Of a stretch of 64,000 nt of DNA, positions 29,742 to 48,823 are shown piece by piece; position 1 is the stretch's first letter, and every line of letters starts with the position of its first letter. Under the pieces are notes generated by a model that searched no databases, was not told where the DNA came from, and saw nothing but the letters and a program-made list of their open reading frames with translations. Made by a program: the position numbers and the translations under genes. This DNA comes from Clostridium sp. BJN0013 (lineage in GTDB: Bacteria; Bacillota; Clostridia; Clostridiales; Clostridiaceae), in NCBI RefSeq assembly GCF_040939125.1, contig NZ_CP162495.1:992001-1056000 (forward strand), given 5' to 3'.

Positions 29742-30623
29742 TTGAATATATACGTAGTTCGTCCTGGCGATTCTATATGGTCTATAGCTAGAAGGTTTGG
29801 CGTTACACCAGATAGTATTATAGATGCTAATAGTATTCAGCCTCAGTTAAGTTTAGTAGTGGGAGAATCACTTGTAGTTCCAACCAAAGAAAGAGCATAC
29901 AGAGTAAGACCGGGAGATTCACTATGGTCTATATCTGAAAGATTTGGTGTCTCTGTAAATAGTATAGCCCAATTAAATAATATTTCCGATCCTTCATCTA
30001 TTTATCCTGGAATGATACTTAGAATACCAGATAAATCAAAAAATTATGGTGTTATTGAAACTAATGCTTTTATACAACCTTCTAATGCTGATAGGGAAAC
30101 CGTGATTGTAAATAATGTAGCTCCATATTTGACTTATATAACTCCTTTTAGTTATCATGTTACAGCAAAAGGAGGATTAACTCCGCTTAGAGATGAAACT
30201 ATTATTAGTGTGGCAAGAAATAACAGAGTAGCACCATTGCTTTCTGTGACAAATTTATCGGGAGCAAATTTTGACACAGAGTTAATAAGTAATATATTAA
30301 ATAATGAAAACCTTCAAAATACTTTAATAGATAATATAATAAACATCATGGATGAAAAATCCTATTATGGAGTTATAGTGGATTTTGAAAGGATTCCACC
30401 TTCTGATAGAGAAGAATATAATAATTTTCTTAGAAAATTAGTATCAAGAGCCCACCCATTAGGATATGTGGTAGGAACAGCATTAGCACCTAAAACATAT
30501 GATGTAACAGTTGGTGCTTGGCATGGAGCTCATGATTATAGAGTTCATGGTGAGATAGTTGATTTTGTTATAATAATGACTTATGAGTGGGGGTGGTCAG
30601 GAGGTGCTGACCGGATTAATTAA
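29742..30623 (+). CDS. LysM-GH18 spore germination/cortex-lytic protein, 5' part (interrupted)
   Basis: The first 288 codons belong to a YaaH/SleL-type protein: LysM 1 (residues 2-46, YVVRPGDSIWSIARRFG), LysM 2 (about 51-96, YRVRPGDSLWSISERFG) and a GH18 barrel from about 110, with catalytic Glu216 in GVIVDFERIPP. Such proteins bind cortex peptidoglycan and act in spore germination. The GH18 domain breaks off in YEWGWSGG, where a 17.8 kb element begins; the last 5 codons and the TAA are element sequence. The remainder of the gene is at 48391-48823. Start is TTG behind AAAAGGAG. As it stands the product lacks half its catalytic barrel and is presumably inactive until excision. Confidence 0.9.
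   Translation: MNIYVVRPGDSIWSIARRFGVTPDSIIDANSIQPQLSLVVGESLVVPTKERAYRVRPGDSLWSISERFGVSVNSIAQLNNISDPSSIYPGMILRIPDKSKNYGVIETNAFIQPSNADRETVIVNNVAPYLTYITPFSYHVTAKGGLTPLRDETIISVARNNRVAPLLSVTNLSGANFDTELISNILNNENLQNTLIDNIINIMDEKSYYGVIVDFERIPPSDREEYNNFLRKLVSRAHPLGYVVGTALAPKTYDVTVGAWHGAHDYRVHGEIVDFVIIMTYEWGWSGGADRIN
30595..30620 (+). other. Left attachment site (attL)
   Basis: Core GGTCAGGAGG followed by the element-side arm TGCTGACCGGATTAAT. The arm is the reverse complement of the element-side arm at the right edge. Confidence 0.85.
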
Positions 30624-30625
30624 CA

Positions 30626-32164
30626 TCACTTTCGTAAAAAGATCTGCAGCTCCTTTGTACTACTATCCCATATAATTTTATCAAATATAATTTTAGCAAG
30701 TCGCTTCTTTTGTTCCATAGATTCAGTGTGTAAAAACTGTTTAATGCTATTGTGAAGTAAATTTACATTTGCTTTGTCGGTAGTATTAAACAGTTTTTCC
30801 CTTTCAAGTTTCAATAATTCCTCTTTAAGCATATTGTTTTCCTGGGTGAGTTCTTCTATCCTCCCGGTAAGTGATTTAGCCGCATCCTTACTTAACAATA
30901 TCATTTTGTCTATTAAACTATCTATTGCCTTTTTGTTTGAATCCAGCTTTTTATTAATGTTTTTTATATCGTTGCCTATATTGGAGACATTGGATTTCTG
31001 TTTATTTTTATTATGATATTCAACTAATTTTTCTTTGTCACGCATGCTTTCCAAAAAATCATTAATTTTATTTTCAGCCATGTCAACTCTGAGGGAAAGA
31101 TTATCACAGCCATTTTGTCTATATCTTTTTCCACTGCATGTAAAATAATATCTTCTGGTTCCGTCACTTCTCTGTCTGCCAGGAGAAACTCCCATACCAG
31201 AGCCACATTTGCACTTCATAATTCCACCGGTAAGAAAGGTAAAACTGCTTTCATGGGGATGAGGGGCAACGGTTTTTTCTTCAAGCTGATTTTGGACGGC
31301 AATCCATAAATTTAAATCTACAACAGCTTCATGTTTGGATACACCAACTAACATATTTTTATCTTTCCATGCCTTAACACCTTTATATCTTGGCCTTCGA
31401 TTATAAGGCAAAAATCCACGTCCATTCGGTTCTCCATAGACAGTATAACCTCTGTTTTTTAAATAAGCTATGGACTGTTCTGTGGCCTTTAAATAGGTTG
31501 GGTTGGTAAGAATACCATAGATGGTTTTGGGATTATATTTCAGCCCCTTAAGCTTAAAATATTTGTGTATTTCAAAAGCAGTATAACCACTGGCGTATTT
31601 TTTAAATATTTCTTTTATATTATCTGCTTCTTTTTCCTTCTTTAAATAAGATACTTCTTTTCCACCTTCCTTAATTCTCTCTATAGAATATCCTGTTGGA
31701 GCAGTTCCACCACTCCAACGACCCATCTTTGCAAGTTCTCTCATATTGTCCTTTACTCTTTGGGCAATATTCATTCTTTCCATTTCAGCAAATGAAGCCA
31801 GAAGCATCATCATCATTTTTCCTATAGGAGTAGAAGGGTCAAAACCTTCTGTAACAGATACAAGTTTCACATTTAATTTGTCCAGTTCGTCAAATACATT
31901 TACAAAGTCCACTATATTTCTGGCTATACGATCTATTTTGTAAACTGCCACCACATCAAATTGTTTAAGTTTAACCAGATGCATCATTCTTTTAAAATCA
32001 GGTCTGTTTATATTACCTCCGGAAAAACCTTCATCCTCAAATATTTCAAATTTACATTCTTCATTTTCTCTTTCAAAATATCTTTTGCAAATTGCTATTT
32101 GATTTTTTATACTTTCTCCAGTATCTGTTTCTACTGATTTACGGCTGTATATGGCAATATTCAT
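30626..32164 (-). CDS. Large serine recombinase (SpoIVCA-like integrase/excisionase)
   Basis: A 512-residue recombinase with an N-terminal resolvase catalytic domain (residues 1-150; nucleophile Ser7 in IYSRKS, arginines in YKIDRIARN and SFAEMERMNIAQRVK), a Recombinase domain (about 160-270), a zinc ribbon (CKCGSGMG...CSGKRYRQNGC, about 325-365) and a coiled coil (about 385-480). It cuts both strands through a phosphoserine and recombines attP/attB or attL/attR. It reads toward and ends 21 bp from the left element edge, the position SpoIVCA and SprA occupy in their elements. The frame is intact, so excision is possible. RBS is AAAAAGGGG before ATG. Confidence 0.95.
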   Translation of the reverse strand: MNIAIYSRKSVETDTGESIKNQIAICKRYFERENEECKFEIFEDEGFSGGNINRPDFKRMMHLVKLKQFDVVAVYKIDRIARNIVDFVNVFDELDKLNVKLVSVTEGFDPSTPIGKMMMMLLASFAEMERMNIAQRVKDNMRELAKMGRWSGGTAPTGYSIERIKEGGKEVSYLKKEKEADNIKEIFKKYASGYTAFEIHKYFKLKGLKYNPKTIYGILTNPTYLKATEQSIAYLKNRGYTVYGEPNGRGFLPYNRRPRYKGVKAWKDKNMLVGVSKHEAVVDLNLWIAVQNQLEEKTVAPHPHESSFTFLTGGIMKCKCGSGMGVSPGRQRSDGTRRYYFTCSGKRYRQNGCDNLSLRVDMAENKINDFLESMRDKEKLVEYHNKNKQKSNVSNIGNDIKNINKKLDSNKKAIDSLIDKMILLSKDAAKSLTGRIEELTQENNMLKEELLKLEREKLFNTTDKANVNLLHNSIKQFLHTESMEQKKRLAKIIFDKIIWDSSTKELQIFLRK

Positions 32165-32196
32165 TTATATTAAATTCCCCTTTTTACAATATATAA

Positions 32197-32231
32197 GATT
32201 AAATTTAAATTAAATTAGTTTAAATTTAATC
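32197..32231. promoter_or_regulatory. Perfect 13-bp inverted repeat, candidate operator
   Basis: GATTAAATTTAAA, 9 bases, then TTTAAATTTAATC. It lies 33 bp upstream of the recombinase start and just upstream of the -10 box (32241-32246) of an opposing RNA, so a bound regulator could affect both. Confidence 0.5.
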
Positions 32232-32252
32232 AAATCGTGGTATAATATATTT

Positions 32253-32338
32253 AAAAGAAGCCGTTGCGGTTTTTAAGTTTTAAGATGTTTTTGGTTTAAC
32301 TAAAATGCACTTTGTCAGAAAGGTGCATTTTTACTTTT
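32253..32338 (+). ncRNA. Candidate antisense RNA of type I toxin-antitoxin module 1
   Basis: A TATAAT at 32241-32246 is followed by a short unit that ends in a hairpin AAATGCACTTT/AAAGGTGCATTT and a T-rich tail (32303-32340). It runs opposite to, and overlaps the 3' end of, the small hydrophobic protein gene at 32331-32510. The same promoter, hairpin and order recur at 45002-45100. Confidence 0.6.
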
Positions 32339-32510
32339 TTGAGTTTTTATCTTCAGCAGTCATAGAAATTTCACTTTCAGTCAAATTTCCAACCGAAGAC
32401 TTACCTTTAATTTCAAGTCTATCTTTTAAATATGTTCCTACAATCACCATAGCTGTCAAGCCAAGTGATGTAACACATATAAATCCTAATGCAATGATAG
32501 TTTCACTCAA
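32331..32510 (-). CDS. Small hydrophobic peptide, candidate type I toxin (module 1)
   Basis: A 59-residue peptide starting at TTG behind AGAGGAGGTGG: one strong membrane helix (LGFICVTSLGLTAMVIVGTYL) then a charged tail (KDRLEIKGK...EISMTAEDKNSKK). The start is set by alignment with the paralogue at 45090-45281, which has the same RBS layout. Its mRNA would begin near 32606 (ATTATA, the -10 box in reverse, at 32613-32618). ACCGCAACG in the 5' leader region (32537-32545) is exactly complementary to CGTTGCGGT in the 3' region (32262-32270), the long-range pairing typical of TxpA/BsrG-type toxin mRNAs. B. subtilis txpA also sits in a skin element. Toxicity is inferred. Confidence 0.6.
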   Translation of the reverse strand: MSETIIALGFICVTSLGLTAMVIVGTYLKDRLEIKGKSSVGNLTESEISMTAEDKNSKK

Positions 32511-32545
32511 ATTCGCCACCTCCTCTGCTGTCAATTACCGCAACG

Positions 32546-32861
32546 ACCTCTTTTGCAAGAGATAAATTCCGGGAGGTGGCTAACTAAAAACATTTTTATT
32601 CTCTTGGTAAATATTATAGCATATCTATAGTTTAATAATGTATTCTTTATATAAATTAGATGAGATATTATGAATTATTAAAGTGGACCAGTGCTATCTG
32701 ATGGGTATAGGTATTTATCTAGAAGTGAAATATCCATATCATTGAGTGAGGCAGAAGTTTATATTCCTTGTAGTATTTGTTATCCACTACAATACAACAT
32801 ATTGTATAATTAGTTCAGGCTTTTTTATCCAATGAATTGTCAGATTAATTGAAACACCTTG
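32546..32861. other. Leader of TA module 1 and gene-free spacer
   Basis: Up to 32620 this is the 5' leader and promoter of the toxin mRNA. From 32620 to 32861 I see no gene. AAAGTGGACCAGTG near 32680 resembles an insertion-sequence end, but no transposase or matching second end is visible. Confidence 0.4.
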
Positions 32862-33086
32862 TTAAGAGGCTTCTGATTGTATATTTTTACTCTCCAATAA
32901 TTTATTCCATTTAGCTTTAGAAATATGGTACTCTTCTGCCTGGGCCAATTTTGTAAATTCAACAGCTTTATTGTGATTAGCCTTAACAACCTGTTCAATT
33001 TCTTCTAAAGTTACCTTGAAAAATTCTTTTTTATTGTTTACCATGTTAACTTTTCTATTGTTAAAAGCTTTATGTTTTATTAACAT
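32862..33086 (-). CDS. Hypothetical protein
   Basis: A 74-residue charged protein without membrane segments, containing VTLEEIEQVVKANHNKAVEFTK and YHISKAKWNKLLES, which suggests two or three helices. I do not recognise the family. Its start overlaps the end of the next upstream gene by 17 bases on the same strand; a second ATG at 33044 is an alternative start. Both ribosome binding sites are weak. It forms an operon with the upstream membrane protein and repressor. Confidence 0.45.
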   Translation of the reverse strand: MLIKHKAFNNRKVNMVNNKKEFFKVTLEEIEQVVKANHNKAVEFTKLAQAEEYHISKAKWNKLLESKNIQSEAS

Positions 33087-33360
33087 TAGTCAGCTCTACA
33101 TTTATATTTTTTAATTTTTCTTCTGCAGTATTAATTTCAATATTGATTTTTTTCAAGTCTTCTTTTTTAGTGTCAAGAGATTTATTTTTTAATTCTTCTA
33201 TTTGTGTCAATAAAGACATATGTTCTGTGCGAATTACCTTGTTTTCCTTTGCTTTTAGCCATAATAAAATAATTCCTAGTATAGCAGGAATAATAAAGAT
33301 GGAGAAAGCAAAAATCAGTGAAATGAGCCAAGTCTGTAGGTACCATTTTCTTTTATACAT
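33070..33360 (-). CDS. Small membrane protein with coiled-coil tail
   Basis: A 96-residue protein: one long hydrophobic segment (about residues 10-36, LISLIFAFSIFIIPAILGII), then a coiled-coil tail rich in Lys and Glu (about 45-96). I chose the ATG at 33360, which has GGGGAG 8 bases upstream; an in-frame start at 33417 would overlap the repressor gene and lacks a good RBS. It follows the repressor in the same transcript, the usual place of phage lysogenic-conversion or exclusion genes. Function is unknown. Confidence 0.6.
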   Translation of the reverse strand: MYKRKWYLQTWLISLIFAFSIFIIPAILGIILLWLKAKENKVIRTEHMSLLTQIEELKNKSLDTKKEDLKKINIEINTAEEKLKNINVELTNVNKT

Positions 33361-33382
33361 ATAATGTCTCCCCAAAAATAAA

Positions 33383-34039
33383 CTATTTATTCTTTTTCTT
33401 TCTTTTTTGAATAACAAATTCTATAAAATTTTTTATATCTTCAACATCATCATCTGTTATATCCTCACCGTCAAAATGTGCTGCCAATGTTTTTATCTCA
33501 TTCTCTTTTACTAGTTCTGATATTTTTTCATATGATGTGTTTTCTTTAGGATTAAGAGTAGTTCTATCATCTGAATTACCAAGTAGGTAATCTACTGATA
33601 CGTTGAAAAAGTTAGCTATTTCTAATAACGTTTCTGTATCTGGTTTTCTTTGATTTAACTCATATTTTGAAATGGCTGTATTTTGCATGTTGAGTTTTTG
33701 TGCCAATTCTTTTTGAGTTAGACCCTTTTCTTTACGTAATAATTTTAATCTAGCACCAAACTCACCGTTTATTATATATTCCTCATGTGTATTTATATCT
33801 TTAGTTATTTTATTATCAATATATCCAGACACTTCCATAAATTCCTCATACGAAACATTACCATATGAAGCATTAGATAATCTTTTCAAAATGTCAGGAG
33901 TAGGAGGATTATCTAATCTTTGATTAATATATTTTGATAAATAAGTTCTATTTACACCACTATCTTCTGCGTATTGTGATATTCTTCTGTCTCTCATTGC
34001 TTTTTCTATTAGAAATTTAAATTTTTTCTTGTCAAACAT
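33383..34039 (-). CDS. XRE-family phage repressor with two HTH domains
   Basis: A 218-residue protein with an N-terminal HTH-like region (residues about 5-55: ISQYAEDSGVNRTYLSKYINQ) and a second, classic XRE HTH (about 90-145: LKLLRKEKGLTQKELAQKLN, NTAISKYELNQRKP, DYLLGNSDD), then a helical tail ending in Lys residues. It is divergent from a small HTH gene at 34200 across a 160-bp control region, the cI/cro arrangement of prophages. It lacks a LexA-type or ImmA-type peptidase domain of its own. It presumably keeps the element's early genes silent. Confidence 0.88.
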   Translation of the reverse strand: MFDKKKFKFLIEKAMRDRRISQYAEDSGVNRTYLSKYINQRLDNPPTPDILKRLSNASYGNVSYEEFMEVSGYIDNKITKDINTHEEYIINGEFGARLKLLRKEKGLTQKELAQKLNMQNTAISKYELNQRKPDTETLLEIANFFNVSVDYLLGNSDDRTTLNPKENTSYEKISELVKENEIKTLAAHFDGEDITDDDVEDIKNFIEFVIQKRKKKNK

Positions 34040-34067
34040 ATAATCACTCCTCTATATTAATATTAAT

Positions 34068-34190
34068 TATAAGCGTGAAAAAATTCAACAAGTGAAAGCG
34101 TAAAATTTTTTCACGATATTTTGTGAAAATTATTGACGGTAGGTGCAAATGTTGCTATACTAAAACTGTGAAAAAAATTAACAACAAGGA
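34068..34190. promoter_or_regulatory. Repressor/cro control region with repeated operators
   Basis: Several copies of a GTGAAAAAA(A)TT motif in both orientations: GTGAAAAAATTCAAC (about 34075), AATTTTTTCAC facing TTTTGTGAAAATT (about 34106-34131) and GTGAAAAAAATTAAC (about 34168). Another, GTGAAAAAAATTAACA, lies at about 34416 just past the Cro-like gene. A promoter for the plus-strand gene is TTGACG (34134) with TATACT (34156). The repeats are probable binding sites for the divergent repressor. Confidence 0.7.
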
Positions 34191-34199
34191 GGTAGAAAA

Positions 34200-34780: not shown

Positions 34781-34798
34781 GGAATCATTCCTTTCGAT

Positions 34799-35982: not shown

Positions 35983-36459
35983 ATGACACAACAAGAGTTG
36001 GGTCAGGTAAGTTTTTTATCAGATAAGATGATAAGTGCTGTGGAAACTGGGAGAAGGAGTCTTACGAAGGAAACTTCTAAAATTATTTGCAAAAAGTTAA
36101 ATAATCCTAGAGTTTATTTTGAAATGGCCAGTGAAATAACAGGTGATGTATTTAGTCTTAATTGGCTGGATGGAGGAACTGCCGACTTACATAGGGCAGT
36201 AGTAAGGGAAAAGGTTATAGAAGAACTTGGTGAAGCAGTACAAGCTATAACGATTGTCAAAACCTATAAAAATCCTAAAACATGTAGTGGCAAAGATATA
36301 GAAGATATAACTAAAAGCATACAGGAGGCCATAGATGTATATAATGCAAGTGCCATTTATATATCGGTGATGTGTACAGAATTTAACTTGGACATTAAAG
36401 AAATATTTAGATTACAAAAAGAAAAATTAATTAACAGAGGTTATCTGATAAGAAAATGA
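35983..36459 (+). CDS. HTH/nucleotide-associated phage protein with damaged 5' end
   Basis: The intact frame of 158 residues begins within an XRE HTH (MTQQELGQVSFLSDKMISAV, ETGRRSLTKETSKIICKKLN) and continues into a helical domain (LHRAVVREKVIEELGEAVQA, DITKSIQEAIDVYNASAIYI). Upstream codons in frame read CIKEAREERG, the usual beginning of the HTH helix, and an RBS (AAAGGGGGTGACAGA) with GTG lies at 35943, but a 1-base loss near 35955 puts GTG out of frame. So the first 13 or so residues are lost and translation may restart at ATG 35983 (AAAGGGGA upstream). Function is unknown. Confidence 0.6.
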   Translation: MTQQELGQVSFLSDKMISAVETGRRSLTKETSKIICKKLNNPRVYFEMASEITGDVFSLNWLDGGTADLHRAVVREKVIEELGEAVQAITIVKTYKNPKTCSGKDIEDITKSIQEAIDVYNASAIYISVMCTEFNLDIKEIFRLQKEKLINRGYLIRK

Positions 36460-36541: not shown

Positions 36542-36700
36542 ATGAGAAAGAAAAGAGAAAATGATGATGACATAAAAGTGGTTGTCATGAATCCTGAATA
36601 TATGCCTCTAGCTCGGGAAAGAATGTTTGATTTTTTCTATGAAAAGTTTCAAAGGGAACAGCAAGAAAAAGATGAAGATAAACTTAAAGATGCAAAATAG
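36542..36700 (+). CDS. Small charged protein
   Basis: A 52-residue protein (MRKKRENDDDIKVVVMNPEY, then MPLARERMFDFFYEKFQREQ and an acidic-basic tail). The ATG at 36542 follows AAAGGAGG closely and was preferred over an upstream in-frame ATG at 36503 without RBS. Small proteins of this kind are common in clostridial prophage early regions; no function is known. Confidence 0.6.
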   Translation: MRKKRENDDDIKVVVMNPEYMPLARERMFDFFYEKFQREQQEKDEDKLKDAK

Positions 36701-37057: not shown

Positions 37058-38480
37058 TTGCGAAACTCACTGATAAAAATGAATAAAAGATGATGAGAAG
37101 TTTTAAAAATGCAGTTAGAAGATTAAAGGCAAATTTTCACGATTTGGAATAGTTAAATTGAAAAAAAGGGTGCAAGAAATAGAACCATGCTTAATTGAAA
37201 ATTTAAGTATAGCTAATATCTATGCAACCAATGGTTTTAGGATCCATTTCATTTTAGGATAGACGAATTTCATTGTTGGAATTCCTGAACGTAAGTGTGT
37301 TTTGCTTCCTTGTCGTTTCATGGGTAGAGAATGGTCATGAGGGCAGCATGGGATACCATCTTCATTCAAAGGACAATCGGATTCTTCTGGTGCAAGCTTA
37401 GTTTTTAGTGGAATATATGCTTTTTCAAACTTTAGTTCTTGAAAAAGATATTGATAAATTTCAATACTATCAAAAGCAGCGTCACCTAAAAAAGTTCTAG
37501 GATTTATCAAAGGATGTTTTTCAAAAAAATCCTTAAGGACAGGTATAAGTGCTTTAGAATCAGCAAGGGACTTATCTTCATCAGGAGAATTGGATTTTTT
37601 CTCAACAACGATATCTGGGTGAGTCTTAAGAAAATCTTGGTTGTAAAATGAAATATCTCTTACAATACCAAGGCCGTTGGTTACAATGCCAAATTTAAAA
37701 GCGTAACAAAAATGACTGTTAATGTACATCTGCTGAATGGCCGGGTTAGCTGCAGCATGAGAAGGCATAGCCCTGTAAGCAGCTTTATAAGGGTCATAAG
37801 AATCATCCAGACCATGTGTCTTCTTAAAAGCTTTAAGTTGTTTTATGATGCGGTTAGCATATTTAGGGTTGTTTTCAGTGACGAAAGTTTCAATACCAGA
37901 AGTATCAAAAATAGTCATAGAAGCAAGTTTTGCATCAATTTGTTGGCATATTGGTTCAGTAATATCAACAAGATTATGGAACATCAATTGTAAGTCTAGA
38001 ATAAAATCCTGTTTAAAACGTGTGAATTTAGAAGCATCAGGAACTTTTAAGAAACCGCAGAAATCCCTTAACTCTTGAGAATATTTAAGAAAAATAATCA
38101 AAAGGGAATCTGTAGGAATAGAAAAAATACGCTGTAAAATCAAAGCACTAATCATAGCATAAAGCTGATATTTTCGTGGTCTTCCAGTAGAAGCATAAAA
38201 ATGATTTATAAAAGAAGCTGGAATTAAATCATCCAGATTAATAGTATCTTCAAGTAGAGAAAGAAACTGGGGCTTGTTGTTTTCAAATTTTTCTTTACAA
38301 TCAGAAAAAACTTCTGCCAAAGAAAGCTGTTTATGTGGTATCATATGTATATAACTCCTTTCTGAGGTATATGGTGATTTTGTTTGTTGATTAATTCAAT
38401 TTTACCATAAATCAGTGAGGAGTTATTCTATTTTATAACAAAAAATATACCGCATTTATGCGGGTTGTAGCGTTTCGCAA
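37058..38480 (-). mobile_element. IS1182-like insertion sequence with internal deletion
   Basis: Ends with imperfect inverted repeats TTGCGAAACTC (37058-37068) and GCGTTTCGCAA (38470-38480), 10 of 11 matching. It carries one transposase gene on the minus strand. The transposase lacks its C-terminal third, so the copy is likely non-autonomous. No clear target duplication was found. Confidence 0.65.
37220..38344 (-). pseudogene. DUF772/IS1182-type transposase, C-terminally deleted
   Basis: A 374-residue product. The N-terminal DUF772 domain (SFINHFYASTGRPRKYQLYA) and the DDE-type middle (MTIFDTSGIETF with the first Asp, TFLGDAAFDS with the second) are present. After GIPTMKFVYPKMKWI the sequence goes straight to LKPLVA-stop; family members have roughly 100 more residues here, with the ERSINHFK-type segment bearing the catalytic Glu. 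An internal deletion that keeps the frame and the last residues explains this. It should be inactive. Confidence 0.75.
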
Positions 38481-38520: not shown

Positions 38521-39123
38521 ATGAACATAAAAAAATTATCTAAATCAATTCAAAATTATATTGAAGATGGATGTGCCTATATAGCAATATACAAGAAGGG
38601 TCGTTCATGGGATCATGAGATATTAGATTGTGATTCAGAGGATGAGCTTAAAAATGATAGTGAGTTAAAGGAACTTTATCTCATGGATAAAAATGTAATT
38701 GTAGTTAATGGAGAAGTTGATAACTTTGGTACCAACACCCTTTCTGATATTGAATACAGAATTAGAACCAATTATGAAAAAGGTATCGGTCAAATTTATT
38801 TTCAGGCTGAATTTACTAGTGAGAGTTTAGAAGATGAAAAAATGATTAAAAATTGCTCCCGAAAATCAAAAAAAGTTGCAGGAGTAATAAAACAATTATT
38901 TGAAAATTCCGGCATTGAAGTGACACAGAGGGAATTTAAAGATATATTGCAAATTGCAACAGATGATATAAGAGAAAATCGGCTTAAGTTTGGAAAGAAG
39001 ACAAGTATGGAGCAGATGTTTACTATAGCAGTTAGTGGCTATGAGGTAATGAAGAGAGTGATGCCATTTGATATGTCCTGGCCGATAAATAATGCAAATA
39101 AAGAATTTCTTAAATACGCATAA
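38521..39123 (+). CDS. Hypothetical protein
   Basis: A 200-residue soluble protein, acidic in its N-terminal half (ILDCDSEDELKNDSELKELY) and helical in its C-terminal half (VAGVIKQLFENSGIEVTQRE, GYEVMKRVMPFDMSWP). I do not recognise a domain. AAAGGAGAAAG before the ATG supports expression and a terminator follows the stop codon directly, so it is a single-gene unit, perhaps cargo of the element. Confidence 0.6.
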   Translation: MNIKKLSKSIQNYIEDGCAYIAIYKKGRSWDHEILDCDSEDELKNDSELKELYLMDKNVIVVNGEVDNFGTNTLSDIEYRIRTNYEKGIGQIYFQAEFTSESLEDEKMIKNCSRKSKKVAGVIKQLFENSGIEVTQREFKDILQIATDDIRENRLKFGKKTSMEQMFTIAVSGYEVMKRVMPFDMSWPINNANKEFLKYA

Positions 39124-39126
39124 AAA

Positions 39127-39916: not shown

Positions 39917-40237
39917 TCATTCACACATCATATTGAGGACAGGAATTAGTGACTTCCCTCTTTCGGATAAAGAATATTCAACCCTTGGAGGAATTTGAGG
40001 ATATTCAGTTCGTACAATCAACTTATCTGATTCCAGCTCTTTTAAGTTGATGCTTAAAGTTTTGTATGAAATTGTACCAATGCATCTTTTTAATTCATTA
40101 TATCGAATTACTGGTTTGTATTCGGCAAGCCAATATAGAATAATCATCTTGTACTTGCCCCCAATTAGTGATAAGGTATAACCAAAATCTGTGTCTTTGA
40201 TATCAATTCCAGTTGGACTACAATCTTCTATTGCCAT
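39917..40237 (-). CDS. HxlR-family transcriptional regulator
   Basis: A 106-residue winged-helix protein with the HxlR pattern (LSLIGGKYKMIILYWLAEYK, RYNELKRCIGTISYKTLSIN, LKELESDKLIVRTEYPQIPP, RVEYSLSERGKSLIPVL). Family members sense reactive electrophiles or thiol stress through an N-terminal cysteine; here Cys6 is close to the start. It is divergent from a flavoprotein gene 122 bp away, the usual target arrangement. Confidence 0.9.
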   Translation of the reverse strand: MAIEDCSPTGIDIKDTDFGYTLSLIGGKYKMIILYWLAEYKPVIRYNELKRCIGTISYKTLSINLKELESDKLIVRTEYPQIPPRVEYSLSERGKSLIPVLNMMCE

Positions 40238-40359: not shown

Positions 40360-40905
40360 ATGAAAAAGAATATTTTGGTTTTAACAGGGAGCCCCAGAAA
40401 GGGCGGGAATAGCGATTTAATGGCAGACTCCTTTATAGAAGGAGCTATTAAATCAGGACATAAAGTAACCAAATATGAAACTGCAACTAAACATATAGAA
40501 GGATGCAGAGCTTGTGATACTTGTTTTAGCAAAGGTATGGCCTGTTCATTTCAAGATGATTTTAATGAACTGACACCCTTATTGGAAAAAACTGACTTAA
40601 TTGTATTTGCAACGCCACTTTACTGGTATACATTTCCTACACAAATAAAGGCTGTTATTGATAAATTGTATTCTTTTATTGTAGGCCAAAAGCCTTTGAA
40701 AATAAAAGAGTGTATGCTATTGGTATGTGGTGAGGAAAAGGATGAGAAAAAATTCGATGGAATTATCAAATCCTATGAGCTTATTGCCATTAATAGGGGG
40801 TGGAATGATATAGGAAAGTTGATTGTTCCTGGTGTAATTGATAAGGGTGATATTAAAAATACTGATGCATTAAAAAAAGCAAAGGAATTAGGTATAAGAA
40901 TATAA
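40360..40905 (+). CDS. NADPH-dependent FMN reductase / iron-sulfur flavoprotein-like
   Basis: A 181-residue flavodoxin-fold protein. The FMN phosphate loop is LTGSPRKGGNSD (residues 8-19), a cysteine cluster CRACDTCFSKGMAC (about 49-62) resembles the iron-sulfur flavoprotein family, and FATPLYWYTFPTQIKAVIDK is the second flavin-binding segment. It probably reduces quinones or other electrophiles under control of the divergent HxlR protein. AAGGAGG precedes the ATG. It is cargo not needed for the element. Confidence 0.88.
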   Translation: MKKNILVLTGSPRKGGNSDLMADSFIEGAIKSGHKVTKYETATKHIEGCRACDTCFSKGMACSFQDDFNELTPLLEKTDLIVFATPLYWYTFPTQIKAVIDKLYSFIVGQKPLKIKECMLLVCGEEKDEKKFDGIIKSYELIAINRGWNDIGKLIVPGVIDKGDIKNTDALKKAKELGIRI

Positions 40906-41429: not shown

Positions 41430-42864
41430 CTAACCTACGGACAGCTAATAACCATATAAATGGGAATTAAAATTTGTATAGAAATATTCTGAAAATAATA
41501 AAAAGCACCAATTCATAGTATAAAATTGATTTGCAGCACAATTTTACTAGAAAAGGTGGCTTATTATGATCAATGATCAAGAATATATTACTACAGAATT
41601 AAAAAAAATACTAGAAAAAATGATAATTTTATCATCATACCGTTTAAATAACTTAATAGCTATAGTTGTAGGAATAATAGTTTCACAGTCAGTTATATTA
41701 TCCAAAATATCTCAAGAGCTGAAGGATTCCTATTCTTCAGGTACAGAAGAAAGTAAAATTAAAAGATTGAGAAGATTTTTAACTAACAAGGCTATTAATT
41801 GTGAGAAAATATATGAATTCTTCGCATATAGGTTACTACAAAAGTATAAAAGTCATTCAAAGAAAATATATATAATTTTTGATCACACAACTATTATAGA
41901 TAAATTTGTTATATTACAGTTTTCTTTAAAAGTGGGAAGAAGGGCAGTTCCCCTGTGGTATAAGATGTTCTTATATAAAGATGAGGGAAGTAAAGATTTC
42001 AAGTATATTAAACAAGGACTTAATTTTATACATAAAATAGTAGTTCCCTATAATTTTGATGTTACAATTTTAGCAGACAGGGGATTTAAAAGTGTCGATT
42101 TGTTTAAGTTTATAGATAAGACTTTAAAATTCAAGTATTGTATCAGGTGTACAAAAAATTTAAAAATATCAATATGCGGTAAACCAAATATAAAAAAGCT
42201 GGGAAATATAATACCTTTAAAGGGAAAGACAAGACACTTTTACAATGTAAAATTAACATCTAAAAAATATATATGCAATCTGGCAGTCTGCAGGGCAGAA
42301 AGTTCTGATGATACCTGGTTCATAGCAAATAATTTAGAACAGACCTTTTCAATTAGAGAATATAAAAAAAGATTTGATATAGAAGAAATGTTTAAAGATT
42401 TTAAATCTGGTGGGTTCAATTTAGAAGGTACCTGGACACATAATATCCAGTATGCAAGAACCTTATATTTATGCATTTGTATAGCTTACTGCTGGATGAT
42501 AACCCTTGGAACATCTTGTACAAAAGATAAGAAAAATAAACTTATTGGGGCTACAAAAACATTGAGAGACAAACAGGTAAGAATCTACAGCTTATTTAGG
42601 GCTGGAGTTAAATGGTTCAAAAGATGTTATTATTCTTTAAGAAATACCTATTATTTAAAAATTGCTTTTACATTATATGAATATTAGTTCCTTTTATTTA
42701 CATTGACATAAAACACTGTTATAAGTATAAATTTATACTTACATTTTAATCAATTTATTCAATAATAATCAATTAGGAATATGATTAAATCCTTGAGTAT
42801 AAACATCAACATCAATCATTATACTTTAATGGAATTTTATATAAATTTACTGTCCGTAGGTCAG
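41430..42864 (+). mobile_element. IS4-family insertion sequence nested in the IS91-like element
   Basis: 1435 bp. Terminal inverted repeats CTAACCTACGGACAG (41430-41444) and CTGTCCGTAGGTCAG (42850-42864) match at 14 of 15 positions. A 10-bp direct repeat TATCTATCCC flanks both sides (41420-41429 and 42865-42874). The clean duplication shows a recent insertion, later than the decay of its host element. Confidence 0.9.
41566..42687 (+). CDS. IS4-family DDE transposase
   Basis: A 373-residue transposase, intact. The catalytic acidic residues are visible: Asp in IIFDHTTI, Asp in TILADRGFKS, and Glu in the YREK-type motif YKKRFDIEEMFKDFKSGGFN. Length and order fit IS4-group elements. AAAAGGTGG precedes the ATG. 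The intact frame plus the perfect flanking duplication suggest an element that was recently active. Confidence 0.9.
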   Translation: MINDQEYITTELKKILEKMIILSSYRLNNLIAIVVGIIVSQSVILSKISQELKDSYSSGTEESKIKRLRRFLTNKAINCEKIYEFFAYRLLQKYKSHSKKIYIIFDHTTIIDKFVILQFSLKVGRRAVPLWYKMFLYKDEGSKDFKYIKQGLNFIHKIVVPYNFDVTILADRGFKSVDLFKFIDKTLKFKYCIRCTKNLKISICGKPNIKKLGNIIPLKGKTRHFYNVKLTSKKYICNLAVCRAESSDDTWFIANNLEQTFSIREYKKRFDIEEMFKDFKSGGFNLEGTWTHNIQYARTLYLCICIAYCWMITLGTSCTKDKKNKLIGATKTLRDKQVRIYSLFRAGVKWFKRCYYSLRNTYYLKIAFTLYEY

Positions 42865-43944
42865 TATCTATCCCTGCAACTTTTAAAAGAAACTCTGCTG
42901 TTGTTAAATTTAATTTAGCTTGGCTTTCACTCAACAGAACTTTAAGAATCATCTTACATTTTTTAAGTTTTGTTCTACGGTTGCGATTACATTAGAATCC
43001 CATAATGTCTTATCTTAATAAATTTAGGCGGCAGCACATGCATTAAAAATCTATGTATGAATTCTTCAGCTTTAACTGTCATAACTTTTTCTTTATTATT
43101 ATCCCGGTAATCTCTCCACTTAAAACTCACAAGTCCATTTTCAAGAGCAAGGATTCTGTTGTTTGAAATTGCAACCCCGTGTGCATATCTTCCTAAATAT
43201 TCAAATACATGTTCGCTGCTCTTAAATGGAGATTTACAATAAACCACCCATTCTTTTTTATACAACTTGTCTAAAAAGCAGTGAAAAACATCCTTGTATC
43301 TTAAATCTTCAATGTCGGCAGTAAATTTTAATTTGGCATTGCTGTAGTATTCTTTTTTTAGATAGTATAAAAATTTTCCACGAAATTTTGCAGACAGGAC
43401 CTTAACAGGTATAAAAAAATCTTTCTTAGAATTAATCCACCTTACCCCATCAAAAGATATTCCGCCTCCGGTAACTATACAATGAATATGGGGATGATTC
43501 ATAAGATTTTGTTCCCAAGTATGCAGTATTGTTGTAAAACCTATTTCTGCACCAAGATACTTTGCGTCCTTTGAAAGTTCCAGAAGAGTTTCTGATACAG
43601 ACTTAAACAAAATAGAATACATCTCTTTCTGATTTGTAAGTACCAAAAAATTCAGTTCTTCAGGTATAGTAAATACAACATGAAAATATGGTACCTGTAA
43701 TAAGTCATTTTTTCTATCTTCAATCCATTTTTCTTTTTTTAATGTCTGGCATTTAGGACAGTGTCTATCTCTACAAGAATTATAAGAAATTTTAATATGT
43801 CCGCATTCTTCACATTCGTCCATGTGACCGCCTAACTTTGATGTCCTGCATGAGATAATATTCCGAATTACCTTTTTAACGTGGAATGGCAGTTTATGTT
43901 TTTGGCAATACTCGTCTCCATGCTTAAGAAAAATATCCTGCAGC

Positions 43945-44794
43945 TCAATCATTTTCTATACCTATAAGTATATCCAGTGGACTTTTTATATTTAATAAAT
44001 CCATTCTTCTGAGGTGTAGATATATAGTGGTAGTAGTTATCCTTGTATGTCCTAAAAGTCTCTGGATATAGCAAATATCCGTTCCAGTATCCAAAAGATG
44101 TGTTGCAAAACTATGTCTCAGTGTATGTACTGTTGCAGGTTTAGTAATCTCTGCTTTTTCCTTTGATTTCTGAAATACCCTTTGAACGCTGCGTGGTGTT
44201 ATGGCATCAGTCCTATATCTTCCTGAAAACAAATATTCTTTAGGTTTATATTTTTTCCAGTACTCCCTTAGAACTTGAAAGTTTAATTTTGATAAAAGTG
44301 AATATCGATCTTTTTTACCTTTACCCTGCCTTATAAATATTTGCATATTTTTACTGTCTATATCTGTTACTTTGAGATTGCAAACCTCACTTACCCTTAA
44401 TCCTGCAGAATAAATTGTCATAAAAATTGCCTTATGTTTAATATTTGGGGTAGTATCAAAAATAGCTTTTATCTCTTCAGGCGATAATACAACAGGCAGT
44501 CTTCTACGTTCTTTTATTCTCGGAATTTTATTAATATCCCAGGTTCGGTTTAAGACTTTTATATATAAAATTTTAAGAGCTGCATAAATTGAACCTACAG
44601 GATCCTTCTGTTAAACATCTTTTTGTGATACAACAGTGTAAATACTCACGTATTTCTTTCTCACCCAATAAATTAGGTGATTTTTTATAGTATTTTGCAA
44701 AATTGCCAACGTGATTAAGATAATATTTTGTAGTAATTGGACTGTACCCTTTTAAATCCATATAGATTTTCATTTGTTTTCTTAACTCTGACAT
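43945..44794 (-). pseudogene. Tyrosine recombinase/integrase, frameshifted
   Basis: The N-terminal SAM-like part (44573-44794: KGYSPITTKYYLNHVGNFAK) and the catalytic part (43945-44421: TIYSAGLRVSEVCNLKVTDI, HTLRHSFATH, LLGHTRITTTTIYLHL) are in different frames; the linker sequence SIYAALKILYIKVLNRTWDI is found in the second frame. A 1-base indel near 44600 separates them. The catalytic half keeps the Arg, His-x-x-Arg, Lys-loop and Tyr residues. The gene overlaps the transposase start by 8 bp. Such integrase-IS91 pairs are common. Confidence 0.85.
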
Positions 44795-45013
44795 GATAAC
44801 AAAGTGGTATTTACATAAAAATAAATATCACTTTTAAAATACATGTCTTTAAATTTTACCACAAAAGTTTAAATTACTTACAACGCAGCCATCACTTAAT
44901 AGTGGTTTCGTTCTGATTTACTATTGCGAACCATTGTAATTTTGTTTTTGTATAAAATATAATACATTAAGATTAAGTGTTTAAAATAAAATATAATGTG
45001 GTATAATATATGT

Positions 45014-45100
45014 ATAAGAAGCCGTTGGGGTTTTAAAAATCAGATTGTTTTTAATTAATCAAAGTGCACTCAGTGGGATGGGTGCATTTTTACTTTTTTG
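45014..45100 (+). ncRNA. Candidate antisense RNA of type I toxin-antitoxin module 2
   Basis: TATAAT at 45002-45007, then a short unit ending in the hairpin AAGTGCAC/GTGCATTT with a T-rich tail. It is laid out exactly like the unit at 32253-32338 and overlaps the end of the opposing toxin-like gene. Confidence 0.6.
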
Positions 45101-45281
45101 AATGATTATTTTCATCATCAACAGTAATAGAAATTTCATTACTATCCCTAAACTTACTTTTATGTTTAAGTATAGCTTTTCCCTTTAAGTATGCCAACAT
45201 AGCAAAAATTGCTGTAGTACCCAATGTTATGCCCGTTGTTGTTATGCATACCACGGAGACGATAATAACGTAAGCATTCAT
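45090..45281 (-). CDS. Small hydrophobic peptide, candidate type I toxin (module 2)
   Basis: A 63-residue peptide with one hydrophobic helix (VIIVSVVCITTTGITLGTTA) and a tail ending NEISITVDDENNHSKK, which parallels the tail EISMTAEDKNSKK of the peptide at 32331. ATG 45281 follows AGAGGGGGTGAC; a more upstream in-frame start is less likely. The leader has ACCGCAACG at 45308-45316, complementary with one mismatch to CGTTGGGGT at 45023-45031 in the 3' region. The -10 box of the mRNA is ATTATA in reverse at 45383-45388. The two modules differ in sequence but keep every regulatory part. Confidence 0.6.
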   Translation of the reverse strand: MNAYVIIVSVVCITTTGITLGTTAIFAMLAYLKGKAILKHKSKFRDSNEISITVDDENNHSKK

Positions 45282-45417
45282 ATTGTCACCCCCTCTGCTG
45301 CTAATTAACCGCAACGACCTCTTTGAAAGAGATGAAACACTGGAGGGTGACTAACTAAAAACATATTCATTCTCTTAATGATATTATAGCATAATTTTAT
45401 AGTAAAAAATAATTATT

Positions 45418-45445
45418 GCCCCGGTTTTCCGGGGCTTTATTTTTT
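45418..45445 (+). terminator. Hairpin terminator
   Basis: GCCCCGG, four bases, CCGGGGC, then TTTATTTTTTT. The gene it once served is not visible. Confidence 0.7.
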
Positions 45446-45530
45446 TATATAAAATTGGAATATTGAGCAGGAATATACATATTATTGTAGAAGTACTTAT
45501 ATGTAATAATTGAAAGGGGGAGAGAAATAA

Positions 45531-45713
45531 ATGAAAGTCACAGGAATAATTCTTATTATTGTAGGAGTTGCTGGAATAATAGTGGGTTGTGTCGTGCGCG
45601 GCAACATAGGAATAGCTGCTATAATAGGAGCTTTAGCAGGATTAATATCAGGAATAGGATTTATTTTGGCAGACAAAAAGATTGAATTATTATCCAATAA
45701 TAAGAGTTCTTAA
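45531..45713 (+). CDS. Small two-helix membrane protein
   Basis: A 60-residue protein with two hydrophobic helices rich in Gly, Ile and Ala (GIILIIVGVAGIIVGCVV and IAAIIGALAGLISGIGFILA) joined by an Arg-Gly turn, and a short polar tail. GAAAGGGGG precedes the ATG and a terminator follows 55 bp past the stop, so it is probably expressed on its own. A holin-like or stress-membrane role is possible but not supported by any motif. Confidence 0.6.
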   Translation: MKVTGIILIIVGVAGIIVGCVVRGNIGIAAIIGALAGLISGIGFILADKKIELLSNNKSS

Positions 45714-45767
45714 TTTATTCTATACTGGTGGAAAGAGATCAAATATATAAGTACTCCTAAAAAAGAT

Positions 45768-45799
45768 AAAAGCCCTGGACTAATCCCAGGGCTTTTATT
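45768..45799 (+). terminator. Intrinsic terminator
   Basis: AAAAGCCCTGG, six bases, CCAGGGCTTTT. A classic rho-independent terminator. Confidence 0.9.
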
Positions 45800-46495
45800 G
45801 AATTATGGTAAAAACATACTAAGCAAGATAATAAAGCATTTATAGGAGCATTATTATTATATCCAATTTACCATGTTTTATGTTTATTCAAAAGTTGGAG
45901 TATTTAAGGAAGCTCACACCTCGAATGATACCGGCTTTATTTTATGTCTAAATATAAATACCATATTTACAAATGAAGCAGTAGATACAAAAGCTCAATC
46001 TCAATTAAAATAATATAATAAAAAAACAAAGGAGCATTAATAATTTGCTCTTTTTCTAATTAAGCATTTCAGCCCGCCCACAATGTTTACATGTATCATT
46101 AATAAGAGCTATTTTAACTGTGTTGCTCCTACAGAGTCGGAAAAGGATACACAGATTGCAAAGATACAACAAGATTTAGCAGCAGCACAAGCTGAAAATA
46201 CTCAATTAAAGCAAACTATTGCTAGTATACAGAGTGCTGCAGGTGCTGTGCAGAATACGAATATCTCTACAGCTGTTGTAAATGCAGAAAATAAAACAAC
46301 GCAGGATACTTCTATTGCTCAAACTGAGTAGTAACAGTTTAAGAAATATTCAATGTATTTTAACACTTCACATAGAAAAACATTAAGATAACATTGGAAT
46401 AACATGGGTGTTGCATTAAATTGTCATAAAGGATAGCTAGAATATTAAATATAGCAGCTGCAATAAATAACTTAAAAATTCAGGAGGTAATAAAA
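45800..46495. other. Decayed region with a doubtful coiled-coil frame
   Basis: No well-supported gene. A frame at 46083-46331 encodes an 82-residue coiled-coil-like sequence (TQIAKIQQDLAAAQAENTQL) with no RBS; it may be the tail end of a lost phage gene. A small hairpin terminator GAGCATTAATAATTTGCTC lies at about 46033-46055. Confidence 0.4.
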
Positions 46496-46741
46496 ATGTT
46501 AAAAATGAAATATAAGGTACTCTCAGCTGTAATGCTTGCAACACCATTGTTACTTAATACAGGAATTGCTACGACAGTTAGCGCATGTTCTGCCAATAGC
46601 AAACCAGGTGTAGTTTGTAAATCTAAATATAAAGCACCTGCCAAACCAGCACAAAAGGTAGTAAACAAGCATAAAGTTAAGGCATCAAATACTAAACCAG
46701 CACCAAAAGTAGTGCATTCAGCAGCAAATGCTAGAAGATAG
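46496..46741 (+). CDS. Small secreted basic protein
   Basis: An 81-residue protein with an N-terminal signal peptide (MKYKVLSAVMLATPLLLNTG, cleavage likely after VSA) and a mature part rich in Lys, Ala and Pro (KSKYKAPAKPAQKVVNKHKV). GGAGG precedes the ATG. Its signal peptide closely matches that of the larger protein at 47163-47915, so the two are related. Nothing indicates the target; it might bind the anionic cell wall. Confidence 0.65.
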   Translation: MLKMKYKVLSAVMLATPLLLNTGIATTVSACSANSKPGVVCKSKYKAPAKPAQKVVNKHKVKASNTKPAPKVVHSAANARR

Positions 46742-47162
46742 CAGTATTGTAATATGAATAGCCTATTGGGATTTTCTCGGTAGGCTTATTTCATAGAATT
46801 AGGTTAATAGGGTAAATTTATTAAATAAGAGAGAAGTATAACAATTGCATAATGAAAAAAGTGGACCCCTTTGTCAAGACAAAGTTCAAGACTAATGCAC
46901 TATTTTATTCATTATCATTTACAGAAGAAGAAATTAACGAATTAAATACTATATAAAGGATTATTTTAGTACTTTCCTTCATTTTTGCTATTGATAATAT
47001 TTGTTTCTGCCATTAGATTAGAAGAGCCATAAAATATAAAAATAGAGATAATTACAATAAGATTATCTCTATTTAAAGTTTATTAAAAATGTTAAAAATT
47101 ATAATACTTCATATCGTCCTTATTTAGCAATAATATATTATACTTTTAATCAGTAAATGCAT
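46742..47162. other. Gene-free region
   Basis: About 420 bp without a credible gene. AAAAGTGGACCCCTTTGTCAAG (about 46857) resembles the end of an IS3-type element and is followed by an orphan 25-codon frame, but no transposase is present. Confidence 0.4.
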
Positions 47163-47915
47163 TTAATGTTGTATTAGTACTGCTTGATTCTGAGTTAAGA
47201 CTCCTATTATTACTAAAATATTTAATTGAGATCTTAAATTTTTTGTCGTTAAATTACCTTTATTAAATAAATTTAATATTGTTGTCTTTTGATCTTGAGT
47301 TATAGTTCCTGCTGTTACTAAATTGTCTAATTTAGTTTTAATATCCTCAAGAGAGAAACTTGTATTTGAAATAGTTGTTGAATTATCTACATTAGACACT
47401 GGTACTGTTGGTTTTACTGGTGCTGGTATTTTCCAATTAGAACCCCAACTAGTAAATGCATTTAATATTGAATATTCTTGACTAGCAGTTGTAGTTCCTG
47501 CTGATACTAAGGCATCTAATTGAGCCTTAAAGGTTTCTCCTGTTGTTATTTTGTTATTATAATACAAATTTAATATTATTGTTTCTTGATCTTGAGTTAT
47601 AATTCCTGCTACTACTAAATTATCTAATTTAGTCTTAAAATCTGAAAAAGAATAATTACATGAAGTATGAATTATAGTTGGTGTGTACTGGTGGACAGGA
47701 TATGTATTAATTCTATCAGAATATCCTTGGTCGTTGAATTTTGAATGATCACTCGGATTGCTGTATCCTGTATTATTTCTTGAATTATTGCTTATGCTAT
47801 TACATCCTGAATTTTTACCATAATTTGCATGAACTGTTGTAGTAACTCCTGTATTCAATAATAATGGTGCTGCTATTACCAAAGTTGAAAGTAATTTGTA
47901 TTTCATTCTTTGCAT
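47163..47915 (-). CDS. Secreted protein with four helical repeats
   Basis: A 250-residue secreted protein: signal peptide (MKYKLLSTLVIAAPLLLNTG, cleavage after HA), a linker rich in Asn, Ser and Gly, then four related modules of about 30 residues: FKTKLDNLVVAGIITQDQET, FKAQLDALVSAGTTTASQEY, IKTKLDNLVTAGTITQDQKT and LRSQLNILVIIGVLTQNQAV, with a Pro-rich spacer after the second. The modules look like short helical hairpins, as in DUF2680-like wall-associated proteins, but that match is weak. The signal peptide is shared with 46496-46741. AAGGGGG precedes the ATG. Confidence 0.7.
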   Translation of the reverse strand: MQRMKYKLLSTLVIAAPLLLNTGVTTTVHANYGKNSGCNSISNNSRNNTGYSNPSDHSKFNDQGYSDRINTYPVHQYTPTIIHTSCNYSFSDFKTKLDNLVVAGIITQDQETIILNLYYNNKITTGETFKAQLDALVSAGTTTASQEYSILNAFTSWGSNWKIPAPVKPTVPVSNVDNSTTISNTSFSLEDIKTKLDNLVTAGTITQDQKTTILNLFNKGNLTTKNLRSQLNILVIIGVLTQNQAVLIQH

Positions 47916-48372
47916 CACTTTTTCCCCCTTAAATCTTATATATTAGTTAACATTATATACTAAAATTGTATTTTCAAGGTCAATTATCTGTGTGAACTTT
48001 ATGTTATCGTAAAATTAACACAGGTACTGATGCAAAAACATAGTTTGAATGTAATAATATGTAATGATTTAACAACAAAATACATGGAATGAGGGTCTCC
48101 TGAATGAAAAAGTTTAAAGAATTATAGTATTATTTGTTACAATAAACATTTTATTATTTTTAAATATACCCATATTTACAGCAATAATTACAAGATCTAA
48201 ATAACCGTCCTTAAAATAACATCTTAGAATCTTGACCATATTAGATTGGATGTAGTGGTTAAAAATTATTTTTAATTTAGTTTTGGTTAGGAAAGAACAA
48301 GGTTTATAATTATAGTTATTACTTTTATAATAAGTATAATACAAGTAATTAAGTCATTTTTAAATAATGTTG
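47916..48372. other. Gene-free right end of the element
   Basis: About 455 AT-rich bases between the secreted protein gene and attR. I see only a minimal frame (ATGAAAAAGTTTAAAG, near 48103) and no RNA signature. A small excision factor could be hidden here, but nothing supports one. Confidence 0.4.
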
Positions 48373-48390
48373 ATTAATCCGGTCAGGAGG
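48373..48390 (+). other. Right attachment site (attR)
   Basis: Element-side arm ATTAATCC followed by the core GGTCAGGAGG and the chromosomal GH18 sequence. The arm ATTAATCCGGTCAG is the exact reverse complement of CTGACCGGATTAAT at the left edge. Confidence 0.85.
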
Positions 48391-48823
48391 ACCACCTATG
48401 GCGGTTGCACCAATTAATGAAGTACGTAAAGTAATAAATTATGCAGTAAGTGTAATTCCACCTAAAAAAATAATGATGAGTATTCCTTTATATGGATATG
48501 ATTGGACACTTCCTTATACTCCAGGAGGTGAATTTGCGGAAAGTATTGGAAATCAAGAAGCAATAAATAGAGCTAGAAGATATGGAGCACAAATTAAATA
48601 TGATACTAAAGCTGAGTCTCCTTACTATAACTATATAGATGAAGAAGGTAGAGAGCATGTAGTATGGTTTGAAGATGCAAGAAGTGTAGAGGCAAAGTAT
48701 AAGCTTGTAAATGAATATGGACTAAGGGGAGTAAGCTACTGGCAATTATCTAAGGAATTTCAGCAAAATTGGCAAGTTCTAGATAATATGTTTCAGATTA
48801 CAAAGGTTATACCAGCTGAATAA
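48391..48823 (+). CDS. LysM-GH18 spore germination/cortex-lytic protein, 3' part (separated by the element)
   Basis: Codes for the C-terminal 143 residues of the GH18 barrel: PPMAVAPINEVRKVINYAVS, MSIPLYGYDWTLPYTPGG, ARSVEAKYKLVNEYGLRGVS, then YWQLSKEFQQNWQVL. After excision of the 17.8 kb element these residues follow WGWSGG of the 5' part without a frame break, giving about 431 residues, the normal length of two-LysM GH18 spore proteins. On its own the fragment has no proper RBS. Both halves retain intact coding sequence without stops, which implies that the restored gene has been under selection. Confidence 0.92.

Follow-up and report, generated by a model that had tools for sequence, protein, structure and literature searches.

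In Clostridium sp. BJN0013 a gene of the sleL/yaaH type is divided by a 17,786-bp element with its own large serine recombinase, and the element is probably a skin-like intervening element, that is, a domesticated serine-integrase prophage remnant whose excision during sporulation would rebuild sleL. The source is a 64-kb stretch of this genome (here called the window; the genome is G000 in the genome comparisons), and coordinates are positions in the window unless a locus label (L...) or a genome position is given. The comparisons establish, at the level of DNA, a precise site-specific insertion with natural empty sites, an intact recombinase, constrained gene halves and phage relatives with the same att core. 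The recurrence of the split in distant bacteria together with the intact recombinase suggests gene repair by DNA excision at spore formation. An initial annotation of the window had proposed a developmental rearrangement; the gene type, the precise in-frame site-specific element and the recurrence speak for it, while excision and its timing in sporulation stand as predictions.

The 5′ half starts with a TTG codon at 29742, reads to ...MTYEWGWSGG and departs from the gene at 30605, and the 3′ half from 48392 reads (GG)PPMAVAPINEVRK, which is the PPMAVAP continuation, to its end at 48823. The initial annotation had placed the two joints at 30604 and 48391 and was right to about one base, and the 10-bp core it reported at both joints is GGTCAGGAGG (Table 1), the element length being taken between its two copies. 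A GGTCAG/CTGACC inverted repeat was found at attL. By eye, the attL arm TGCTGACCGGATTAATTAACAT resembles an inverted copy of the attR arm ATGTTGATTAATCCGGTCAG, and the phage-side arms TTGATTAATCCGGTCAG (attL) and CTGACCGGATTAATTAAC (attR) are near-inverted copies of each other, which is the shape expected for a large serine integrase site. Genome G004 has a natural uninterrupted site, to which the host sides of the window match in 59/60 and 59/60 bases and the element sides in 28/60 and 15/60; for G011 the host sides match in 57/60 and 59/60 bases and the element sides in 27/60 and 15/60. With such an empty site in a relative, the split goes beyond chance. The 3′ part follows directly behind the 5′ part in 35 of 38 loci (the exceptions being L014, L043 and L044), and the natural uninterrupted orthologues carry the att site in frame. 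Open frames of 430-445 aa occur in 13 genomes (match from residue 1 or 2, at least 66%; G000 and G006 excluded), and the interrupted frame has 300 aa in the window genome and 305 aa in G006, which is C. ljungdahlii ERI-2, its places and values being identical to those of the ERI-2 genome reached through L014.

Among solved structures in the Protein Data Bank (PDB) the intact orthologue of G011 is closest to two entries, which it matches over nearly its full length: the 'Cortical-lytic enzyme' 4s3j (residues 3-426 of 429, E 4.5e-122) and the 'Spore germination protein YaaH' 4s3k (residues 3-427, E 3.1e-119). These matches together with the two LysM domains and GH18 support the YaaH/SleL type given in the initial annotation, with a predicted cortical hydrolase as the product. 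Both deposited chains are single and uninterrupted, whereas the window gene is in two parts, and since the break lies inside the GH18 domain the whole domain is in neither half. It could be imagined that the halves are made separately and act together or alone; both are constrained, and the frame of the C-terminal half opens a few codons before the joint (in the Aneurinibacillus genome G060 directly behind the recombinase stop) and could be translated. With the break inside GH18 and natural orthologues that are single chains, such a split protein is very improbable.

The initial annotation correctly placed an intact large serine recombinase at the element's edge, where its 3′ end faces the attL core at a distance of 21 bp. 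The closest recombinases found outside sleL are on IMG/VR contigs, L136 (83%, 45 kb), L137 (82%, 38 kb), L138 (67%, 28.5 kb) and L139 (59%), and a recombinase fragment of 80% is on the IMG/VR contig L140. On L138 an attP-like site is uninterrupted, with phage arms on either side of GGTCAGGAGGTGCT, and the L136 contig is cut off at the corresponding place, in an arm of this type. None of the four viral records checked gave a sleL, the ends of L136 and L137 being trimmed. L139 adjoins a frame that by eye is similar to a flavin adenine dinucleotide (FAD) oxidoreductase, so that this relative of the window recombinase would use another target. Of the open reading frames (ORFs) of the element, 18 were scanned with PHROGs, the transposases, the cargo and many smaller ORFs lying outside the scan. 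Among these 18 there was no match to capsid, terminase or portal (head) families and there were weak matches only to tail-needle-like (3.6e-4) and spanin-like (5.1e-4) families; a complete temperate prophage was rejected, as structural and packaging genes were unrecognised among the same ORFs. The viral relatives and the repressor-like helix-turn-helix (HTH) genes remaining in the element are in keeping with active lysogeny, in which the recombinase of the element or of a helper phage would excise it on phage-type induction and not on a sporulation cue, gene repair being a by-product. Little phage gain would follow from an element with transposase insertions and no recognised structural genes, and the gene is of spore type, which makes active lysogeny a rather improbable explanation.

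The element-type split described in the initial annotation recurs at the same codons in C. ljungdahlii ERI-2, in the Aneurinibacillus family and in the Bacilli genomes G984 and G726. The sleL site is occupied in at least ten genomes (the window genome, ERI-2, six of the Aneurinibacillus family, G984 and G726), and in all of them the break is at the same residue, WG(W/Y)(S/V)GG before the joint and PP after it. Both the conservation of this site and its repeated use are unusual. In the window's family 82 of 206 genomes match the 5′ part at E 1e-60, and a frame of about 300 aa was found in two, the window genome and ERI-2. Among Clostridia drawn evenly, 70 of 391 match (E 1e-55) and the gene is split in the window genome only; at the same threshold 142 of 398 Bacilli match, G984 and G726 being split among the matches listed. 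The Aneurinibacillus family has the gene in 7 of 11 genomes (E 1e-60), five of those with a frame of 308-386 aa, namely G060 (Aneurinibacillus sp. Ricciae_BoGa-3), G061 (A. terranovensis, with the halves on two contigs), G235, G237 and G238, and a sixth genome, G239, has one split and one whole copy. Where one contig carries both joints, the smallest element has about 3.8 kb (G239) and the largest 17.8 kb. The window and G726 have a shared core of 10 bp, ERI-2 (TGGTCAGGTGGT, by eye) and G984 one of 12 bp, and the Aneurinibacillus group one of 8 bp (G238), 7 bp (G237) or fewer in register; for G235 and G239 the core finder gave chance 6-mers only and for G060 an out-of-register 8-mer, and the joint was taken from the codon register. 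G001, G181, G182, G642 and others in which the match starts later in the gene were taken as unsplit shorter genes. G966, seemingly split by frame length, has about 40 bp and no element between its pieces and was not counted, and G454, broken at a contig end, was dropped.

The sleL of ERI-2 is interrupted at the same Gly-Gly codons, with a recombinase 82% identical and in the same place and orientation. Beyond the recombinase, in the stretches compared (L104-L106), the DNA that the two elements share is limited to about 290 bp around a small ORF and 126 bp near 38.9 kb. The 3′ part of sleL is present twice in ERI-2 (L105:11583-12008 and L106:2421-2846), on contigs C11 and C40, each behind an attR and with a 602-bp block 96% identical; C40, which matches L015, appears to be the native flank, and the whole looks like a stacked integration with a choice between two 3′ ends. 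By eye, citrate-lyase-ligase-like and aconitase-like ORFs are on C11 and a citrate-lyase-alpha-like ORF is on C40, which, with the contig order inferred, points to a cluster of citrate genes lying between these copies. In isolate BL-3 (L012:11385-11522) sleL is whole, and about 90 bp behind it is a recombinase relic (65% over 46 residues, with stops nearby), as if remaining from a stacked element. The A. terranovensis contig with the sleL 3′ half has an 863-aa and a 518-aa ORF upstream of the recombinase (L107:13574-17726), which presumably resemble the DabA/DabB inorganic carbon transporter and may be element cargo.

In a tree of 26 recombinases, from which that of G239 was left out and non-sleL relatives of the other two clades are absent, the nine sleL-inserted recombinases fall into three clades separated by long branches (0.84-1.92 changes per column). 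One of them, which groups with the viral contigs, contains the recombinases of the window and of ERI-2. No viral-contig relatives of the Aneurinibacillus-type recombinase were confirmed, and viral-contig matches to the third clade reached 24-30% only. In the phage collection the best listed rows gave 43.8-44.8% for the Aneurinibacillus type (Geobacillus, Parageobacillus, Anoxybacillus and D6E phages), 28.0-30.5% for the third clade and at most 32.5% for the window recombinase. The label of sleL insertion needs 4 changes on the tree, at least 2 of them forced by well-supported branches, and the sleL site was likely chosen independently by separate recombinases, the long-branch joins being unsure. 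It is about an even call whether the Gly-Gly-Pro-Pro of sleL serves endospore formers in general as a 'developmental splice site', at which at least three unrelated serine recombinase lineages of Clostridia and Bacilli use the same attB codons and the element has lasted and been selected in several lineages, each with its own small directionality protein. To our knowledge this would be the clearest case in which two bacterial classes have elements with very different recombinases at the same codons of one spore gene.

A small ORF is common to the Aneurinibacillus-family elements and a different one to those of Clostridium type, as expected of a directionality factor. Among the ORFs listed, those recurring in five Aneurinibacillus-family elements are the recombinase and one of 49-74 aa (IVNAGIPERI / LVNSGIPERV), the elements of G235 and G238 having further ORFs in common, and in the Clostridium clade an ORF of 51-53 aa is found in the window (36542-36700), in ERI-2 and on the viral contig L138. 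The window ORF is a candidate directionality factor, its putative function resting on this recurrence. A profile of the small ORF matched 7 of 200 family genomes, the best two being the elements of the window genome and ERI-2, which helped build it; a weak match in G182 is about 1 kb from a 59% recombinase relative, another weak one in G147 is behind an unsplit sleL with no recombinase nearby by tblastn, that in G195 is near an unrelated recombinase, and the remaining ones are in G025 and G084. A promoter-like GAAC (once GCAC)-(16-17)-AATATAWT was found in 15/15 regions upstream of the gene, at a distance of 43-50 bp from the end of the start codon. Before the recombinase a simple motif scan gave nothing convincing for sigma-E or sigma-K.

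Constraint on the two halves was analysed separately, each by itself, as the ratio of nonsynonymous to synonymous substitution rates (dN/dS) by the NG86 method. Between the window and G011 the 5′ half gave 0.113 and the 3′ half 0.088, with six neighbouring genes at 0.130, 0.096, 0.099, 0.122, 0.066 and 0.205; against G004 it was 0.153 and 0.077, with neighbours at 0.078-0.219. Codon changes on the window branch number 4 nonsynonymous and 12 synonymous in the halves and 9 and 33 in three upstream neighbours, and the sister stem, on which the gene is whole, has 6 and 8 (counts polarised with outgroups G009 and G010, with 16 nonsynonymous and 32 synonymous ambiguous changes in the halves left out). 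These small counts, for an insertion that is undated, give no clear sign of relaxed constraint in the window halves. Two unbroken DNA alignments link G235 and G238, one of 2,266 bp (88%) across the left flank and the adjoining part of the element and one of 3,751 bp (86%) across the recombinase and the right flank; as both joints are passed, the split state probably predates the parting of these two genomes. Their dN/dS is 0.092 for the N-terminal half, 0.027 for the C-terminal half and 0.069 for the recombinase, and the split looks inherited, with both halves under purifying selection. The argument from selection is stronger in this pair because its split appears to come from a common ancestor, and with pairs of this kind the selective upkeep of splits can be tested from sequence alone.

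Several observations weigh against a developmental role of the element. The initial annotation had argued from the intact halves to selection on the excised form; the halves are indeed about as constrained as their six neighbours, but with an undated insertion the argument carries little weight for the window by itself. In G235 and G238 the synonymous divergence (dS) of the recombinase, 1.0, exceeds that of the halves, 0.31 and 0.46, which may reflect exchange of the recombinase gene. The gene is not universal, being matched in only the 82 family genomes counted above, and 11 other genomes of the genus, apart from the window genome and ERI-2, have an unsplit sleL. The recombinase of G239 (L131:4136-5613) reads in two overlapping frames, and at least this one sleL element may be stuck. 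Two further serine recombinases of the BJN0013 genome adjoin truncated non-spore frames, near 1,670 kb (an FAD-oxidoreductase-like ORF, L151:5744-6274) and 698 kb (an ABC-type lipoprotein-like ORF, L152:10669-10923; names by eye); from one truncated frame each, these elements appear to split non-spore genes, and splitting alone therefore does not indicate a developmental switch. None of the candidate factors has a PHROGs family match, and their charge is not uniform, the isoelectric point (pI) spanning 5.25 to 9.16 (window 5.4, ERI-2 5.79, L138 7.84, G235 5.25, G237 6.19, G060 9.16). In a simple scan no site like those of sigma-E or sigma-K was found in the 200 bp before the window candidate, with weak ones in ERI-2, and expression of sleL in the mother cell is predicted from homology alone.

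An element of this kind could also be a plain prophage remnant in a dispensable gene, decaying and seldom if ever excised during the normal life cycle. The elements at L151 and L152, the lack of head, portal and terminase families among the 18 scanned ORFs, the transposase-type ORFs inside the element, the undated insertion and the unsplit relatives are all compatible with it. Against these stand the intact recombinase, att sites and halves, the constraint on the halves, the recurrence of the split elsewhere and its apparent persistence in G235 and G238 with purifying selection on both halves, and a plain remnant is accordingly considered unlikely. As a skin-like element, the insertion would have arisen when a serine-integrase prophage inserted into a conserved attB of a sleL/yaaH-type gene (codons WGWSGG to the left and PP to the right of the joint) and then became a domesticated remnant. 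The small element protein, for which 36542-36700 is the candidate, would switch the recombinase to excision in the mother cell during sporulation, recombination of attL with attR would take place at the Gly-Gly codons, and a 17.8-kb circle would be released, leaving a whole gene for a SleL-type cortical hydrolase; the element would stay in the forespore and so be inherited. If this is true, the gene of a spore-lytic enzyme joins the few that excision of DNA is known to restore, and named strains such as C. ljungdahlii ERI-2 and Aneurinibacillus terranovensis DSM 18919 would make a test of excision simple.

The other features of the element are collected in Table 1. It is partly decayed, as the initial annotation held, with three transposase-type ORFs and a tyrosine recombinase in two pieces; the closest NCBIfam models of the three are IS1182, IS4 and IS91, and the curated cut-off is reached by IS91 alone. 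The module of about 430 bp with a hydrophobic ORF next to the recombinase is also found at 44980-45409 and in many copies in the genome, repeatedly beside serine recombinases (e.g. genome positions 1671987-1672470, adjoining a recombinase at 1670359-1671945), and may, as a guess, act as an addiction module or be type I toxin-like. Rfam gave no match at the gathering threshold within 29500-49000, and no transfer RNA was found in the window.

Table 1. Features of the split sleL/yaaH-type gene and of the element within it.
Feature	Position	Strand	Remarks
Promoter-like block GAAC-N16-AATATAAT before sleL	29678..29705	+	
5′ part of sleL/yaaH-type gene	29742..30605	+	288 codons; two LysM and start of GH18; Pfam LysM x2, GH18 profile 72-182 of 317
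attL core GGTCAGGAGG	30595..30604	+	10-bp repeat; phage-side arm TGCTGACCGGATTAATTAACAT next
Large serine recombinase, intact	30626..32164	-	512 aa; PF00239, PF07508, PF13408 (Resolvase, Recombinase, Zn_ribbon_recom); phrog_95 integrase E 6.7e-103
Multicopy module 5′ of recombinase	32200..32633	-	holds 67-aa hydrophobic ORF (32331-32534)
Phage repressor-like HTH protein	33383..34039	-	
Phage HTH regulator	35983..36459	+	phrog_1124 E 9.3e-27
Acidic small ORF, candidate recombination directionality factor	36542..36700	+	52 aa; conserved in ERI-2 element and phage contig L138; pI 5.4
IS1182/IS5-like transposase-type ORF	37220..38344	-	DUF772; below NCBIfam curated cut-offs
Phage-type protein (LPD15)	38521..39123	+	partly common to ERI-2 and L139
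HxlR-type regulator (cargo)	39917..40237	-	
FMN reductase/flavodoxin-like protein (cargo)	40360..40905	+	
IS4-type transposase	41566..42687	+	145.8 bits vs NCBIfam cut-off 152
IS91-type transposase	42987..43952	-	passes NCBIfam curated cut-off
Tyrosine recombinase in two pieces	43945..44794	-	43945-44421 and 44573-44794
attR phage-side arm	48365..48380	+	part of ATGTTGATTAATCCGG
attR core GGTCAGGAGG	48381..48390	+	second copy of 10-bp repeat
3′ part of sleL/yaaH-type gene	48392..48823	+	remaining GH18; 143 codons and stop; GH18 profile 212-316 of 317

The window element has the class features of intervening elements in sporulation genes, a split spore-type gene, an own recombinase and a short direct repeat with inverted arms, and it is compared here with known systems. 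Among the matches listed from open-licence PubMed Central, supplementary tables apart, the split spore genes are sigK, spsM, spoVFB, spoVR, gerE and yabG, with sleL/yaaH not among them; within that literature sleL is a gene not yet met as split, and the class of element is known. SP-beta in spsM of B. subtilis, with remnants in B. amyloliquefaciens that kept the recombinase and lost phage genes (PMC4191935), is like the window element a prophage or remnant with its own recombinase in a spore-envelope gene, spsM being another gene. Its excision in sporulation has been demonstrated experimentally (PMC4191935), whereas excision of the window element is predicted. The skin element in sigK of C. 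difficile has the large serine recombinase CD1231 and CD1234, of 72 aa and pI 5.5 (PMC5025042), and so resembles the window element with its large serine recombinase and small acidic ORF; the directionality factors SprB and CD1234 are both described as acidic (PMC5025042). Excision of skin rebuilds a sporulation gene, there a regulatory sigma gene, whereas the window element splits a hydrolase gene, and control of the factor by sigma-E and SpoIIID has been shown for skin (PMC5025042), while the small ORF of the window is a candidate factor. Intervening elements are also named in spoVFB (vfbin) and spoVR (vrin) (PMC4191935) and in gerE, where gin is described as not phage-like (PMC5595907); all three are in sporulation genes, as the window element is, but in other ones. 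The prophage-like yin in yabG, with a serine-type recombinase (PMC10747680), is similar to the window element in that the recombinase is just behind the 5′ part of a spore gene, again a different gene. It is described as unique to a single strain of Clostridium botulinum (PMC10747680), whereas sleL is interrupted at its site in at least ten genomes, of both Clostridia and Bacilli.

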